Positions 39,810 to 50,441 of a DNA stretch of 64,000 nt are shown piece by piece. Source of the stretch: a virus; IMG/VR virus record IMGVR_UViG_3300042924_006566, positions 1 through 64,000 of that record. One strand, given 5' to 3'. The stretch's first letter is position 1; each line of letters starts with the position of its first letter. A program made the position numbers and the translations under genes. The notes below the pieces were generated by a model, which searched no databases, was not told the DNA's origin, and worked only from the letters and a program-made list of their open reading frames with translations.

Positions 39810-39817
39810 TATTTATA
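39810..39817 (-). promoter_or_regulatory. T4 late promoter TATAAATA
   Basis: A perfect match to the T4 late promoter core TATAAATA on the minus strand, 28 nt before the gp48-like start. It lies in the 34-nt divergent gap and directly abuts the gp4 start on the other strand. It is the likely main late promoter of the leftward baseplate operon. Confidence 0.75.
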
Positions 39818-45150: not shown

Positions 45151-46023
45151 TTATTCTTCTGCCAACTTACTAAAGTAAGCCATATCTTCATCAGATGAAT
45201 CTTCCCAAGGAGGTTCAACATCTTTCTTTGGAGCAGACTTCAGTTGTTCAACAGTAGTCTTAACTGGTGCAGTTTCACCATTCAGACCAAGAACTTTATC
45301 AAGACGAGTCTTTAGTTCATCATAAGACTTGAATTCCTTGTCAGCAACAAGATCCTTGAGAGTATGTTCTTGCTTCCAGATTTTTTCAAGTTCGTCATCA
45401 TCATTAGACAATGCGGAAGGCGATTCGAATTCAGACTTATCGTAATTCTGATAACCTTCTACCTTACGAATCTTCAGCTTGAAGTTTGCACCTTTCCAGA
45501 AATCAAAAGGATTAATTGCAGTTTCATCTTCGAAAGCAGGATTCATTGCTTCAGTAATCTTATCAAAGATTTTCTTACCGAACTTGAACAGTTTAACTTG
45601 CCCTTCGTTCTCGGGATGCTTAGGATCCGAAACAATATACACATTAGCAATGTAGTTTAGCTTACGCTTTTGTTTACGGACGATTTCCTTGTTGGCTTCA
45701 ATACCTGAGTTCCACAACTTGTTATTGTGTTCACACACAGGACATTGTTGGCTCTTGGTTGTCAGGCAGTTATCAATCAACCAGCCACCAGGACCCTGGA
45801 AACCATGAGAGAATACCTTGACCCAAGGTAGAGAATCATCACCATCGCCAGGTGATGCAGGAAGAAAACGAATGGTCGCCATACCGTTACCGGCTTTATC
45901 GACTTCGGGGCGCCAGAAATTATCTCGACTCTCTGTGCCCTCTGAGGAGTTAAGGGCTTCGATTGCTTTGGTCAGCTTATCGAGGTTGCCAGATTGGCGT
46001 TTGAGGTTTGCAAATGAGCTCAT
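45151..46023 (-). CDS. 32: Single-stranded DNA-binding protein gp32
   Basis: A 290-residue homologue of T4 gp32 (301 aa), which coats ssDNA in replication, recombination and repair. The basic N-terminal cooperativity region has the LAST-like FANLKRQSGNL. The OB core includes FWRPEVDKAGNGMATIRFLPASPGD and zinc ligands in CLTTKSQQCPVCEHNNKLW (about residues 86-104). The C-terminus is acidic (EPPWEDSSDEDMAYFSKLAEE) and recruits partner proteins. AAAGG precedes ATG 46023. A strong promoter with an embedded inverted repeat lies upstream and a strong terminator lies downstream, so it can be made as a single-gene message. Confidence 0.95.
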   Translation of the reverse strand: MSSFANLKRQSGNLDKLTKAIEALNSSEGTESRDNFWRPEVDKAGNGMATIRFLPASPGDGDDSLPWVKVFSHGFQGPGGWLIDNCLTTKSQQCPVCEHNNKLWNSGIEANKEIVRKQKRKLNYIANVYIVSDPKHPENEGQVKLFKFGKKIFDKITEAMNPAFEDETAINPFDFWKGANFKLKIRKVEGYQNYDKSEFESPSALSNDDDELEKIWKQEHTLKDLVADKEFKSYDELKTRLDKVLGLNGETAPVKTTVEQLKSAPKKDVEPPWEDSSDEDMAYFSKLAEE

Positions 46024-46375: not shown

Positions 46376-46867
46376 TCAAATGTACATTTTGAGTTGTGTT
46401 ATAGTGGTTTCTGCATCTTTGTGCCAAATTGCAATTCCACCAGCATTTCGCCAATCATCTATAATACTTTCAGTATCATCAATAATTAATGCGTCAGGTT
46501 TCGCAAAATTCTTTTTCAGTTTCTTACCTGGAACAAAATTAGGTTTAAATGTAATACCATGAGTTTGCAGCCAAACCATTTTTTGTTTTGAAATTTCATC
46601 ATGTCTATCCTCACGAGCCGTAGAAGATAAAATTTGAGTAGGTACAGGTGCCTTTCGGAGAAACTCTAAAAGTTTAGATGCATCAGGCATCAAATCCAGT
46701 GTCTGAAAGTTTTTCTCATGTATGAACATATCAAATTGTCGATTGAACTTGCCAGATTTATCTGCTCTTTCCGGTTTCATACCAAACAATTCTTCATACC
46801 GCTTAATAAAATTTGCGATAACACCGTCCATGTCCAAATAAATGACTGAAATTTTAGGTTTGTTCAT
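46376..46867 (-). CDS. HAD-superfamily phosphatase, 5'-deoxynucleotidase-like
   Basis: A 163-residue HAD hydrolase. Motif I is YLDMDGVIANFIKRYEELFG (catalytic Asp about residue 11, Asp13 second), motif II is ILSSTAR (about 80), a Lys follows near 95-116, and motif IV is LIIDDTESIIDDW (about 130). The small size and DMDGVIANF are typical of 5'(3')-deoxyribonucleotidase/NT5C-like phage enzymes. It would dephosphorylate nucleotides or possibly a nucleic-acid end. It overlaps gp59 by 14 nt in a gp33-gp59-HAD operon. Confidence 0.82.
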   Translation of the reverse strand: MNKPKISVIYLDMDGVIANFIKRYEELFGMKPERADKSGKFNRQFDMFIHEKNFQTLDLMPDASKLLEFLRKAPVPTQILSSTAREDRHDEISKQKMVWLQTHGITFKPNFVPGKKLKKNFAKPDALIIDDTESIIDDWRNAGGIAIWHKDAETTITQLKMYI

Positions 46868-47465
46868 GTTCTTTAATACTTTCCAGTAGAATATTTTTGA
46901 ATTTCTTTTTGTCGTAGATTAAAAATGGTGAATACTTTACGATACGCTTTCTATAATCTGGCCAAACAATTGTATCTTGTATTTTCTTTTCCCACATAGG
47001 AAAAAAATTCATTATGTCGTTCAGTATAACTAAAGTTTCGATAGTTATGTCATTTTCAAGTGTTCGAACAAGTAGTTTAGGATACTGGCCATTTTTAACA
47101 ATCAGTAGTTCATTAGGATCAGATACTGAGTCCATTAATTGAATTATGTTCTGTTCAAATTGATATGTCAACCCCTGAATTCTTTTTTGCCATTTTTTGT
47201 ATGTTTCTTCACCTTCAGGTCCAGTTATTTCACCAACCCAAGAAACATTTCTATCGATAAAATTTGCAACAAAAAAATCTTTCAAATCATCATGCGAATA
47301 TTTTCTAGATAGTTTGTAAAATGAATATTTAGCTTTGTTGTGCATGAATGAATCTTTAGATACATTGGTTTTTCCATTGTACTTAAAGTAATCATAATCA
47401 GAAGTAAAATGCAGTTTTAAGGCCTGATACAAAGTATAGGCTGCAAATCCTGTAGTATCTTGCAT
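46854..47465 (-). CDS. 59: Helicase loader gp59
   Basis: A 203-residue homologue of T4 gp59 (217 aa), which loads the gp41 helicase onto gp32-coated forks. The N-terminus GFAAYTLYQALKLHFTSDYDYFKYNGKTNVSKDSFMHNKAKYSFYKLSRKY is highly characteristic. The C-terminal helical domain ends SPFLIYDKKKFKNILLESIKEHE. It lies between gp33 and gp32 as in T4 and overlaps its upstream neighbour by one base. Confidence 0.9.
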   Translation of the reverse strand: MQDTTGFAAYTLYQALKLHFTSDYDYFKYNGKTNVSKDSFMHNKAKYSFYKLSRKYSHDDLKDFFVANFIDRNVSWVGEITGPEGEETYKKWQKRIQGLTYQFEQNIIQLMDSVSDPNELLIVKNGQYPKLLVRTLENDITIETLVILNDIMNFFPMWEKKIQDTIVWPDYRKRIVKYSPFLIYDKKKFKNILLESIKEHEQT

Positions 47466-47686
47466 CAGAAAGGAAGTTTAGATTTGCTCTTCAGTAAATT
47501 GAGTTCTTCCGCTTCCTCGCGAATCCTAGCTTTCAATGCAGAAGAAATGAGTGTGGCACAAAGTTCCAGCTCCATACCAGTTTGTTCACAGTGATGCAAA
47601 ATAGCATCCATGTGAGGCATATTTTTTGTTTGTGCAAGTGTTTCAATCAATTGACTGAATTCGCTGATTTCATTTTTGGTGGGCAT
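47465..47686 (-). CDS. 33: Late transcription coactivator gp33
   Basis: A 73-residue protein at the conserved 33-59-32 position. MPTKNEISEFSQLIETLAQTKNMPHMDAILHHCEQTGMELELCATLISSALKARIREEAEELNLL is the short gp33 seen in environmental T4-like phages (T4 gp33 is 112 aa). gp33 bridges RNA polymerase and the sliding clamp so that the gp55 sigma factor can fire late promoters. Its presence agrees with the NNTAAATA boxes upstream of late genes in this window. One-base overlaps on both sides show tight coupling. Confidence 0.85.
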   Translation of the reverse strand: MPTKNEISEFSQLIETLAQTKNMPHMDAILHHCEQTGMELELCATLISSALKARIREEAEELNLLKSKSKLPF

Positions 47687-48177
47687 TAGTGTCTCGCATA
47701 AAATAAATGATTACCTATTTGTACAACATATTTCAAATTCCATTCCGGATTTACCGTTGTGTTGTGAAAATACATTGCTTTTGTTCTGTAGAGTGTATCA
47801 TGTACTTTATGTTCTGTCAAGGCTTTCCTGGCAATTAATAGGCTGTCTTCCCATGCTCGACTGTTTACAATTTTCTTAACGCCCTCACCTACCCAACTAA
47901 ACTGGTGAATACCATTAATTTTTTGATAGACAACATCACAAACGGTGTTTGGAAAATTAGGGTGTCTAGTGCGATTCATTGTAACTTGTGCGACAGCCAG
48001 TTTTCCTTCAAAAGATTCCATAGCAGCTTCAAAATAGATATTTCGAGCCAGACACATCAATTGATTTTGAAATTCTTTAGACACTTTTGATGAAATATCA
48101 GATAGACTTGCGTGTGTGAAACCATGAGAGAAAATCATGGTAAACACGATCATTGCGTGTATTAATTTTTTAATCAT
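47686..48177 (-). CDS. SleB-type cell-wall hydrolase with signal peptide
   Basis: A 163-residue protein. Residues 1-23 (MIKKLIHAMIVFTMIFSHGFTHA) form a Sec signal peptide. The rest is a Hydrolase_2/SleB-like domain: CLARNIYFEAAMESFEGKLAVAQVTMNRTRHPNFPNTVCDVVYQ, with the conserved catalytic Glu in YFEA. QFSWVGEG and the C-terminal AMYFHNTTVNPEW follow. It should cut peptidoglycan in the periplasm as an endolysin or a wall-loosening enzyme. No holin gene is evident next to it, so export through Sec may suffice. It is the first gene of the gp33-gp59 unit. Confidence 0.85.
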   Translation of the reverse strand: MIKKLIHAMIVFTMIFSHGFTHASLSDISSKVSKEFQNQLMCLARNIYFEAAMESFEGKLAVAQVTMNRTRHPNFPNTVCDVVYQKINGIHQFSWVGEGVKKIVNSRAWEDSLLIARKALTEHKVHDTLYRTKAMYFHNTTVNPEWNLKYVVQIGNHLFYARH

Positions 48178-48214
48178 ATTTTTTGTGGGTATAATTACCC
48201 GTAGTTGAACAAGA

Positions 48215-48418
48215 TTAGAAGGGTTTTTCTTCTTGTGCCAATTGAAGTAGATGAGCTAAATTTTCTCTCGCTTCGGTTTCTTCTTCAAAAGCTTTGATTA
48301 GCATATAATAACCGTTTGAACCTTCCGGTGCTTCTCTCAGTTTGTATACGCCCCATCCAAGTTTTGTGCATTCTGCATCTGTGTGTGTAATACCAACCCT
48401 GTAAGCAGGTGAAGTCAT
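48215..48418 (-). CDS. Small protein downstream of tmRNA, unknown
   Basis: A 67-residue soluble protein (MTSPAYRVGITHTDAECTKLGWGVYKLREAPEGSNGYYMLIKAFEEETEARENLAHLLQLAQEEKPF). CGGAGAAAAA upstream of ATG 48418 is a good ribosome-binding site. It lies immediately after the tmRNA terminal hairpin. No motif recognised. Confidence 0.65.
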   Translation of the reverse strand: MTSPAYRVGITHTDAECTKLGWGVYKLREAPEGSNGYYMLIKAFEEETEARENLAHLLQLAQEEKPF

Positions 48419-48444
48419 ATTTTTTCTCCGTTAGGTTGAAAATG

Positions 48445-48473
48445 GGTGGGTATTCTGTTACGAGGAACCCACC
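48445..48473 (-). terminator. Hairpin at 3' end of tmRNA coding piece
   Basis: GGTGGGT (48473-48467) pairs with ACCCACC (48451-48445) on the minus strand across a 15-nt loop, and is followed by CATTTTCAACC. It may be the last tmRNA helix or a terminator. The T-run is only four long. Confidence 0.55.
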
Positions 48474-48492
48474 GAACCCTAGGCGCCTTTAA

Positions 48493-48525
48493 TTAGGCAG
48501 CCAATGCGAACTTTTCGTCGTTTGC
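48493..48525 (-). other. tmRNA proteolysis-tag reading frame ANDEKFALAA
   Basis: From the resume codon GCA at 48525 the minus strand reads Ala-Asn-Asp-Glu-Lys-Phe-Ala-Leu-Ala-Ala-stop. This matches the canonical proteobacterial tag (E. coli AANDENYALAA) in length, AND(E) start and the ALAA degron recognised by ClpXP. Confidence 0.95.
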
Positions 48526-48614
48526 ATTTACTTGATTTGCTTGATTTACGGTCATCGCCTACCGTGCTGTCCACTCTGTTACTCTTTGCCCTGTCGATAC
48601 CATGACTGGCCCAT

Positions 48615-48684
48615 CATAAGTTGATTCCGTCCTGCAATACGATTCTTTTTACAAGAAGTGGCACGGTCTGCAAATCAACTTATG
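48615..48684 (-). repeat. 12-bp inverted repeat bracketing the permutation point
   Basis: CATAAGTTGATT (48684-48673) and AATCAACTTATG (48626-48615) on the minus strand are perfectly complementary. They extend the tmRNA acceptor stem across the intervening segment, as in other permuted pre-tmRNAs, placing both cleavage sites next to each other for RNase P and 3' processing. Confidence 0.9.
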
Positions 48685-48750
48685 GTGGACCAGGTGGGAG
48701 TCGAACCCACGTCCAGAACACTTTTCTCTTTGTTTCATACAGCAATATTC

Positions 48751-48942
48751 TTACCAATGATGAATCACATTTGCGATAATAAAGAAACATGTAATCACAT
48801 GAATTATTACCCAAAATGTTTTTAAGAACAACGATATTCTTGCTTCTCTCAGAGAGAGAATAGGAATATCTGGTCTATCGTCATCAGTACTGCCCATCAG
48901 ATGACCAGTTGCTCTTGCCCAAATTTTTTCTAAACTGTTCAT
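48751..48942 (-). CDS. Small membrane protein upstream of tmRNA
   Basis: A 63-residue protein starting MNSLEKIWARATGHLMGSTDDDRPDIPILSLREARISL, with one membrane segment at the C-terminus (FLKTFWVIIHVITCFFIIANVIHHW). An ATG five codons earlier lies on the -10 box of the promoter, so ATG 48942 is used. The expected transcription start falls at or next to this ATG, implying a leaderless message. No ribosome-binding site is seen. Function unknown. Confidence 0.6.
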   Translation of the reverse strand: MNSLEKIWARATGHLMGSTDDDRPDIPILSLREARISLFLKTFWVIIHVITCFFIIANVIHHW

Positions 48943-48948
48943 ACACAC

Positions 48949-48977
48949 ATTATACATTACAAATTAATTTTTGTCAA
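48949..48977 (-). promoter_or_regulatory. Sigma70-type promoter before membrane gene and tmRNA
   Basis: TTGACA (48977-48972), 17 nt, TATAAT (48954-48949): a perfect consensus on the minus strand. It precedes the 63-aa membrane protein and, with no terminator in between, can transcribe the permuted tmRNA from the start of infection. Confidence 0.88.
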
Positions 48978-48992
48978 TACTAATTTTGGTAA

Positions 48993-49589
48993 TTAAACTG
49001 AAACTTCTGCTGATAACTCAACATTTGTTGAGGTACTTACTATAGTTCCAGAAGAATTTCTAATTTCAATCGTATATAGAGCAGCATAAAGTCCGTTTCC
49101 AGTAGTAGTTCTTTCTACAGTAATTGCTGGATTTGAGTTTAGTGCTAAGAAACCAGTCGATGCTGTGGATGTTCCATTAAAACCGTAAGTAGTAGTTCTT
49201 GTAAATCGTATAGAATAACTTGAACCTATGCCAGAAGTGGTCGGCGTAAACCAATTTCCCGAATAAGTTTGGCCGGACAAAAGAGCTACGCCGTTCCATG
49301 TTCCATTTGAATAAAATACCAACTGAATTCTTGGTGGATTAGCTGGGAATCCACCTGTCCACAAATCACCATAAGCTGAACCAGAGTAAGGCTCTCCTGT
49401 TGTACCGCCAGCAGGATTTTTGCTTTTACCATAAAAAGCACTCATAGCCAAATCAGTTGACGCAAAGGTTCCACTACCGCCAGCATCCGTATACCAAGTG
49501 ACACCACGGTATGCACCCAAATTGGTACCAAGACCAAATTCGGCGTTTATTTCTGATATGGATAGTGCGCCTGATGATTTAATTGTCAT
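48993..49589 (-). CDS. Virion protein with SxSEINAEFG N-terminus
   Basis: A 198-residue beta-rich protein. The N-terminus SSGALSISEINAEFGLGTNLGAYRGVTWYTDAGGSGTFASTDLAMSAFYGKSK is a recurring phage structural motif (SxSxIxxEFG...AYRG...MSxFYGK), usually found in fibre or baseplate-associated proteins. A Gly/Ser/Thr beta-sandwich follows. It lies away from the other structural genes, within the accessory region, and has its own late box 28 nt upstream. Possible minor fibre or capsid decoration. Confidence 0.72.
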   Translation of the reverse strand: MTIKSSGALSISEINAEFGLGTNLGAYRGVTWYTDAGGSGTFASTDLAMSAFYGKSKNPAGGTTGEPYSGSAYGDLWTGGFPANPPRIQLVFYSNGTWNGVALLSGQTYSGNWFTPTTSGIGSSYSIRFTRTTTYGFNGTSTASTGFLALNSNPAITVERTTTGNGLYAALYTIEIRNSSGTIVSTSTNVELSAEVSV

Positions 49590-49616
49590 ATGTTTAAAAA
49601 GTTATCGATTGCAAAA

Positions 49617-49624
49617 TATTTAGT
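49617..49624 (-). promoter_or_regulatory. T4-like late promoter box (ACTAAATA)
   Basis: ACTAAATA on the minus strand, 28 nt before ATG 49589. CTAAATA is the form commonly seen in environmental T4-like phages. It lets a structural gene stranded in the early region be expressed late. Confidence 0.6.
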
Positions 49625-50441
49625 TTTTTTGTTGACTTTTCAGATGTTGTAGATACTTAGCAACATCTATTACTTTCCTATTTATGTAAGGACTCAAATT
49701 CTGTCTTGCAATTGGACTGTTTTTTAAGTTATTGAAATAATGATGAAAATTTTCATTGACTGACTTATCACGATGATTTATAAAGGTTTTATATTTTTTC
49801 GACCTCTCTTTAATCATCAAACCTAGAAGTTGTTGTTCGACTATACAATTAACAAATAAATTTTTAGGAAGTTCAAATTTATATGTACTGTTTCTTTTGA
49901 CCATTTCTATTGCAAGATTACAATACTCTTGATTCAGATTCATATCTCGAAAATATAGAAATCCCAAATTTGGATATAAAACTTTGGTCAAGTCATAACG
50001 ATAAAAAATTTCCGGTAAAAATATTTCATAGTCTGTGTGTTGCAAATAAACTTGACCATTTGGATATTCTTCCAGATGTTGAAAGCTTAAATCCGCATCA
50101 AAATATGATTCATCAATTTTTTTGTGTACTATGAAGTCAAAATCAAAATGAAAATAACTTTCCTTTTGCTGTTGATATGTCAACAACTTCGTATACATCC
50201 AGAATTTTAAATCAACATTATCTTTTTGATAAATGTTGTCATATGCAACAACAACATCACAATTCAATTCAAGATGATCAATTACATCTTTTGTGAGTGT
50301 ATCCGTGTATATTTTTGGTTTACTAAAAAATTCATTAATACTCAGTATACTGGCTCGCATTGAAGCCACCATCAACTGTGTATCTTTCCAATATGTTTTT
50401 TGAAACCATGGGTCAAAAGACCATGTTGCAACGGGTTTCAT
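49620..50441 (-). CDS. Putative GT-A glycosyltransferase-like protein
   Basis: A 273-residue protein (MKPVATWSFDPWFQKTYWKDTQLMVASMRASILSINEFFSKPKIYTDTLTKDVIDHL...). A stretch resembling the nucleotide-sugar-binding DxD of GT-A enzymes occurs as YFHFDFDFIVHKKID (about residue 97), followed by LGFLYFRDMNL and a QQLLG segment. This pattern fits DUF6734-like glycosyltransferases. It overlaps the upstream nuclease gene by four bases. The assignment is based on motif shape, and the substrate is unknown. Confidence 0.55.
   Translation of the reverse strand: MKPVATWSFDPWFQKTYWKDTQLMVASMRASILSINEFFSKPKIYTDTLTKDVIDHLELNCDVVVAYDNIYQKDNVDLKFWMYTKLLTYQQQKESYFHFDFDFIVHKKIDESYFDADLSFQHLEEYPNGQVYLQHTDYEIFLPEIFYRYDLTKVLYPNLGFLYFRDMNLNQEYCNLAIEMVKRNSTYKFELPKNLFVNCIVEQQLLGLMIKERSKKYKTFINHRDKSVNENFHHYFNNLKNSPIARQNLSPYINRKVIDVAKYLQHLKSQQKN

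Follow-up and report, generated by a model that had tools for sequence, protein, structure and literature searches.

Does a tmRNA gene on a phage genome represent a gene borrowed from the present host or a part that phages have kept for themselves, and what would it do during infection? This question is raised by a locus within the first 64,000 nucleotides (called the window in the following) of the IMG/VR virus record IMGVR_UViG_3300042924_006566, a virus sequence of 156,624 bases (156.6 kb). A preliminary description of this DNA had proposed that its minus strand carries a circularly permuted tmRNA with the tag ANDEKFALAA, located at 48445-48740. We found that the minus strand at about 48437-48796 indeed encodes a complete tmRNA of the circularly permuted (two-piece) kind. 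The Rfam covariance model RF04321 (tmRNA_permuted) matched with 138.5 bits (E 4.3e-27) at 48744-48493 and was covered in full (model positions 1-213). Among the older models of the clan RF01850 (beta_tmRNA) scored highest, with 136.2 bits (E 2e-41) at 48796-48437; the tmRNA is of the beta (proteobacterial) type. Both matches exceeded the gathering thresholds (47 bits for RF04321 and 84 bits for RF01850) over the full length, such that the search with permuted-tmRNA models that had been recommended as a check came out positive. ARAGORN independently called a tmRNA* at 48402-48775 with the same tag. The original location therefore holds, while the best extent is slightly wider, from 48437 to about 48744-48796. 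The gene is real and well-formed and not a chance match. When the tmRNA was searched at the nucleotide level against isolated phages, no match was obtained at E 1e-5; when the cutoff was relaxed to E 10, most of the matches were short ones to tRNAs or T-arms.

On the minus strand the acceptor/T-arm half lies ahead of the tag-coding half. The acceptor piece (48683-48744), delimited by sequence reading and by the covariance model that also provides its predicted mature 5' end, contains GTTCTGGAC (48719-48711) directly before the T-stem. It continues with the T-arm GTGGG-TTCGACT-CCCAC (48710-48694; T-stem 48710-48706, T-loop 48705-48699, CCCAC 48698-48694), the acceptor 3' strand CTGGTCC (48693-48687), the discriminator A (48686) and an encoded CCA (48685-48683). 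An intervening sequence of 70 nt (48613-48682), which would be removed on maturation, lies between this piece and the coding piece (48437-48612), for which the covariance model gives the acceptor 5' strand, the D-loop region, the tag and the 3' helices. The coding piece opens with the acceptor 5' strand GGGCCAG (48612-48606). Its tag frame GCAAACGACGAAAAGTTCGCATTGGCTGCCTAA (48493-48525, minus strand), called by ARAGORN and read in the sequence, starts at the resume codon GCA, just before which stands AGUAAAU, and encodes ANDEKFALAA followed by a stop; the frame thus has the resume codon, the stop and the C-terminal ALAA expected of a two-piece tmRNA.

The two halves pair with each other in the acceptor stem GGGCCAG/CTGGTCC at 7/7 positions. 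These include G3.U70, the alanine identity pair for AlaRS. The permutation point is bracketed by two perfectly complementary 12-nt arms, CATAAGTTGATT (48684-48673) and AATCAACTTATG (48626-48615), the left of which takes in the final two bases of the CCA. The processing region folds with -44.6 kcal/mol compared to -30.8 kcal/mol in shuffles (z -4.2, 0 of 200 shuffles being as good). The T-arm and encoded CCA in the acceptor half, the 7-bp acceptor stem, the perfect 12-bp stem, the CCA end at 48683 and the start of the coding half at 48612 had all been put forward in the preliminary description, and each of them was recovered in the sequence, with the two end positions confirmed. As far as can be read from the sequence, nothing that charging and tagging require is missing or damaged.

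We compared these structures with those of other phage tmRNAs. In 117 phage tmRNAs the acceptor pairs G1-C72, G2-C71, G3.U70 and G7-C66 were invariant, the constancy of pairs 1-3 being partly due to selection because the extraction of these genes demanded a GGG 5' strand and G3.U70. An earlier extraction without this demand gave nearly the same result for the acceptor stem. Pairs 4, 5 and 6 of the 117 genes switched among C-G, G-C, A-U and U-A, i.e. they underwent compensatory change. A stem of at least 9 pairs across the intervening sequence was present in 106 of the 117 phage genes, compared to 5 with shuffled arms. Relative to a bacterial set of mixed alpha and beta type, the phage genes had a longer intervening sequence (median 80 vs 32 nt) and a longer bracket stem (median 12 vs 7 pairs).

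The phage is T4-like, as had been recognised before, judging from its gp32, gp59, gp33, PhoH and T4-type baseplate genes, the latter occupying 28-38 kb. The tmRNA is part of a row of genes on the minus strand. Ahead of it lie the ORF of a PhoH-like protein (51094-51846), which we used as tblastn probe and as upstream marker, a PD-(D/E)XK exonuclease (50438-51094), which marks the upstream side of the tmRNA interval, a DUF6734 protein, ORF198 and ORF68. It is followed by a 67-aa ORF, a cell wall hydrolase (Hydrolase_2, SleB-like endolysin; 47686-48177), the gp33-type late-transcription coactivator (47465-47686; PF16805, phrog_254), the gp59 DNA helicase loader (46854-47465), a deoxyribonucleotidase and the gp32 single-strand DNA-binding protein (45151-46023). 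A search for SmpB gave none on the whole phage record, such that the host must supply it; none was found either on related fragments, which are too short to be conclusive. The same record also carries 22 clustered tRNA genes at about 117.5-121.0 kb (L144:13513-16959).

A two-piece tmRNA at this chromosomal spot is already known in the phages Melnitz and Mosig, and the window is not the first case. Both phages are Kyanoviridae in GenBank with SsrA annotated before gp33. In Melnitz (a methylophage, Methylophilales phage; MZ577097) the two-piece tmRNA is under a glutamine riboswitch, which does not define the Melnitz-type group (PMC9004378). Melnitz resembles the window in being a T4-like aquatic phage with a permuted tmRNA between a PD-(D/E)XK nuclease and gp33, behind which come gp59 and gp32; an early promoter has been proposed upstream, and a PhoH-like protein is annotated at the matching place. 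It differs in that its tmRNA fits alpha_tmRNA (106.7 bits) and has the alpha T-loop GGCAGTA, the glutamine riboswitch and the tag ANDNYVPVDYALAA, whereas the window has a tmRNA of beta type with the T-loop TTCGACT and the tag ANDEKFALAA, and a riboswitch search across 47900-49700 gave no hit at E ≤ 1. Mosig (a pelagiphage, Pelagibacter phage; MT647606) has, like the window, a permuted SsrA directly upstream of gp33, but this one is alpha-like with a weaker fit (67.6 bits) and the ARAGORN tag GEDNFALAA. The window thus shares with the ssrA locus of the Melnitz/Mosig type the position, with the exonuclease on one side and gp33, gp59 and gp32 on the other, but not the alpha-like lineage. Since the same locus carries an alpha-like tmRNA in these two phages, at least two tmRNA lineages have had a place in the interval.

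Phage tmRNAs had initially been thought to be few, a view that the numbers contradict. A total of 53 unique two-piece tmRNAs of phages, most of them aquatic, has already been reported (PMC9004378). At least 119 viral contigs matched one strict T-arm pattern, nearly all of them with permuted tmRNA calls and many with the same gene neighbours as the window. To obtain a sample that is less dependent on the tmRNA, we searched viral contigs with an exonuclease alignment and kept the best 80, in 58 of which exonuclease and gp33 were both present and in order. The interval between the two genes contained a permuted tmRNA in 47 of the 58 contigs (39 from ARAGORN and 8 from the covariance model), a fraction that has to be read with the caveat that most exonucleases in the search alignment came from tmRNA-bearing contigs. 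The other 11 of the 58 intervals were without a detected tmRNA, so that the tmRNA is not essential to the group. In the cyanophage DSL-LC02 the exonuclease directly adjoins gp33 with nothing in between. Papers found on phages of freshwater Comamonadaceae and methylotrophs do no more than cite ARAGORN. Several permuted viral tmRNAs were called with tags of about 28-33 residues, e.g. ANADTFDFTALNFTGNTVANDSRFALAA (L056, L046, L079, L092, L098, L117); some of these may be ARAGORN errors.

How did the phage come by its gene? Capture from a host had been suggested. If the ssrA of the current host had been captured recently, as a passenger or as a back-up copy, one would understand why beta_tmRNA is the best older Rfam model, why some Burkholderiales have permuted tmRNAs that share 79-85% identity with the coding half, and why the tag is in use by this order. 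The permuted tmRNAs of Burkholderiales (RF01850) also have the same segment order as the window, but they belong to a separate bacterial clade. An IQ-TREE tree of the acceptor and coding pieces of phage and bacterial genes (129 sequences, 172 columns; the phage set picked by one T-arm pattern, cyanobacterial tmRNAs left out) placed the window in a phage-only clade of 54 tips (ultrafast bootstrap 83) and 14 beta-type bacterial sequences in a clade of their own (81), the deep nodes between phage and bacterial clades being weak (24-79). With FastTree and a partly different set, the window fell into a phage-only clade of 79 tips (0.98). The closest sequences were phage tmRNAs at tree distances of about 0.09-0.2, whereas the nearest bacterial sequence lay at 0.62 or more, and the phage-type T-arm pattern occurred in 0 of 398 Pseudomonadota genomes. 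The grouping with phage tmRNAs together with the locus conserved in many phages argues against a recent host capture, which we consider very unlikely. We rather take the data to mean that the gene was acquired long ago from a beta-like source and has since evolved within phages, and that elsewhere it was replaced or gained in parallel.

The tag had also been taken as a pointer to the host. ANDEKFALAA was encoded by 21 bacterial stretches, in one-piece as well as permuted genes, and was found in numerous genera of Burkholderiales as well as in several lineages of phage tmRNAs. Since the tag is common to unrelated one-piece and permuted tmRNAs, it does not identify the host, and we rejected a host assignment on this basis. 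A separate observation concerns Cupriavidus pinatubonensis HN-2, which has a chromosomal ANDERFALAA gene and, on both chromosomes and a plasmid, four extra permuted copies tagged ANDEKFALAA (L123, L133, L135, L138). Other Cupriavidus carry similar extra tmRNA copies, which may belong to mobile islands.

Upstream of the tmRNA, on the same strand, a sigma-70 promoter is predicted at 48977-48949 from its consensus match (TTGACA-17-TATAAT, 12/12). It lies about 200-205 bp before the tmRNA and is one of only a few 12/12 sites in the whole record. ORF68 (48751-48957, minus strand; likely start ATG 48942), which has a predicted hydrophobic segment and belongs to phrog_1679 of unknown function, separates promoter and tmRNA, and in the window ORF68 and the tmRNA would therefore be co-transcribed. 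Among 95 distinct phage genes, promoter sites of at least 10/12 accumulated at a fixed distance, with 31 sites at which the -10 element ends 70-79 nt before the CCA end, compared to at most 3 sites in every other 10-nt bin. About a third of the related phages have a promoter at this fixed distance, and a similar one is found there in the related contigs L149 and L150; the promoter of the window is off this distance, with ORF68 intervening. The peak suggests that many of these phage tmRNAs have a promoter of their own. The T4 late-promoter motif TATAAATA was not found near the locus, its sole copy in the window being located at 39810.

Sequence, structure, synteny, tree grouping and promoter spacing provide the basis from which we infer expression, processing, charging, function and benefit. 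Most likely the gene gives a functional-looking, phage-inherited two-piece tmRNA that would be transcribed early and rescue ribosomes during infection. Early transcription of the precursor would probably start from the promoter at 48977-48949 and rely on the sigma-70 RNA polymerase of the host. Host RNase P acting at G1 (48612) and 3' processing at the CCA (48683) would remove the 70-nt intervening sequence, with the acceptor and coding pieces staying joined via the acceptor stem and P2. The tmRNA would be charged by host AlaRS through G3.U70 and brought by host SmpB and EF-Tu to ribosomes that have stalled on truncated mRNA, where ANDEKFALAA would be added and the tagged product be sent to ClpXP-type proteases. 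The phage would profit in that ribosomes stay in use during takeover, when mRNAs are degraded; given what is known of tmRNA, keeping ribosomes available is the most likely benefit. The earlier proposal that the tmRNA keeps ribosomes working is supported as a mechanism only.

The tag ends with ALAA, which is typical of tags degraded by ClpXP, and the promoter is of the host early type. Both would suit a tmRNA that mainly tags host or unfinished proteins for degradation, i.e. for amino-acid recycling or redirected proteolysis, instead of rescuing ribosomes. A degradation-tagging role has been suggested for the Melnitz tmRNA (PMC9004378). However, the tags at this locus vary widely between phages, some being long and unusual, whereas the tRNA-like domain varies very little, a contrast that points to rescue and charging as the conserved function and not to a particular tag-directed set of targets. 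As there is also no visible means of choosing targets, we regard degradation as an unlikely main purpose. A phage RNA could furthermore act against the host system: for mycobacteriophage DS6A a short tmRNA-like domain, consisting of the tRNA-like domain only, was reported as a tmRNA inhibitor (PMC4131195, PMC11915505). A decoy of this kind, tying up host SmpB or blocking host trans-translation, would be compatible with a phage record that lacks SmpB. Yet the gene in the window has a full tag frame, a resume codon, a stop and the conserved upstream AGUAAA, all of which are superfluous for a decoy, so that this role appears highly improbable.

Beyond ribosome rescue by the single gene, we see about even chances that aquatic non-cyanobacterial T4-like phages possess a phage-specific permuted tmRNA lineage, inherited with the replication/late-transcription module exonuclease-tmRNA-endolysin-gp33-gp59-gp32 and often having, at a fixed distance, a near-perfect sigma-70 promoter of its own. 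If this holds true, ribosome rescue would be a standing early function of these phages and not an occasional borrowed gene. So far phage tmRNAs have been described as curiosities. Our data suggest that a permuted tmRNA is common at one conserved place in one large aquatic T4-like group, often with an early-type promoter of its own. The window is an unremarkable example of this group. Specialists may take an interest in the apparent phage-specific lineage and the fixed promoter arrangement, and phage-encoded ribosome rescue is directly testable in the cultured phages Melnitz and Mosig.

Finally, ORF68 has relatives in at least 591 viral stretches, mostly away from any tmRNA. Among the relatives listed it is 78-90% identical, a degree of conservation that is unusual in so short a phage protein. 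As in the window, such relatives are located immediately upstream of a tmRNA in two further phage contigs (L068:3520-3693 and L017:93-254).
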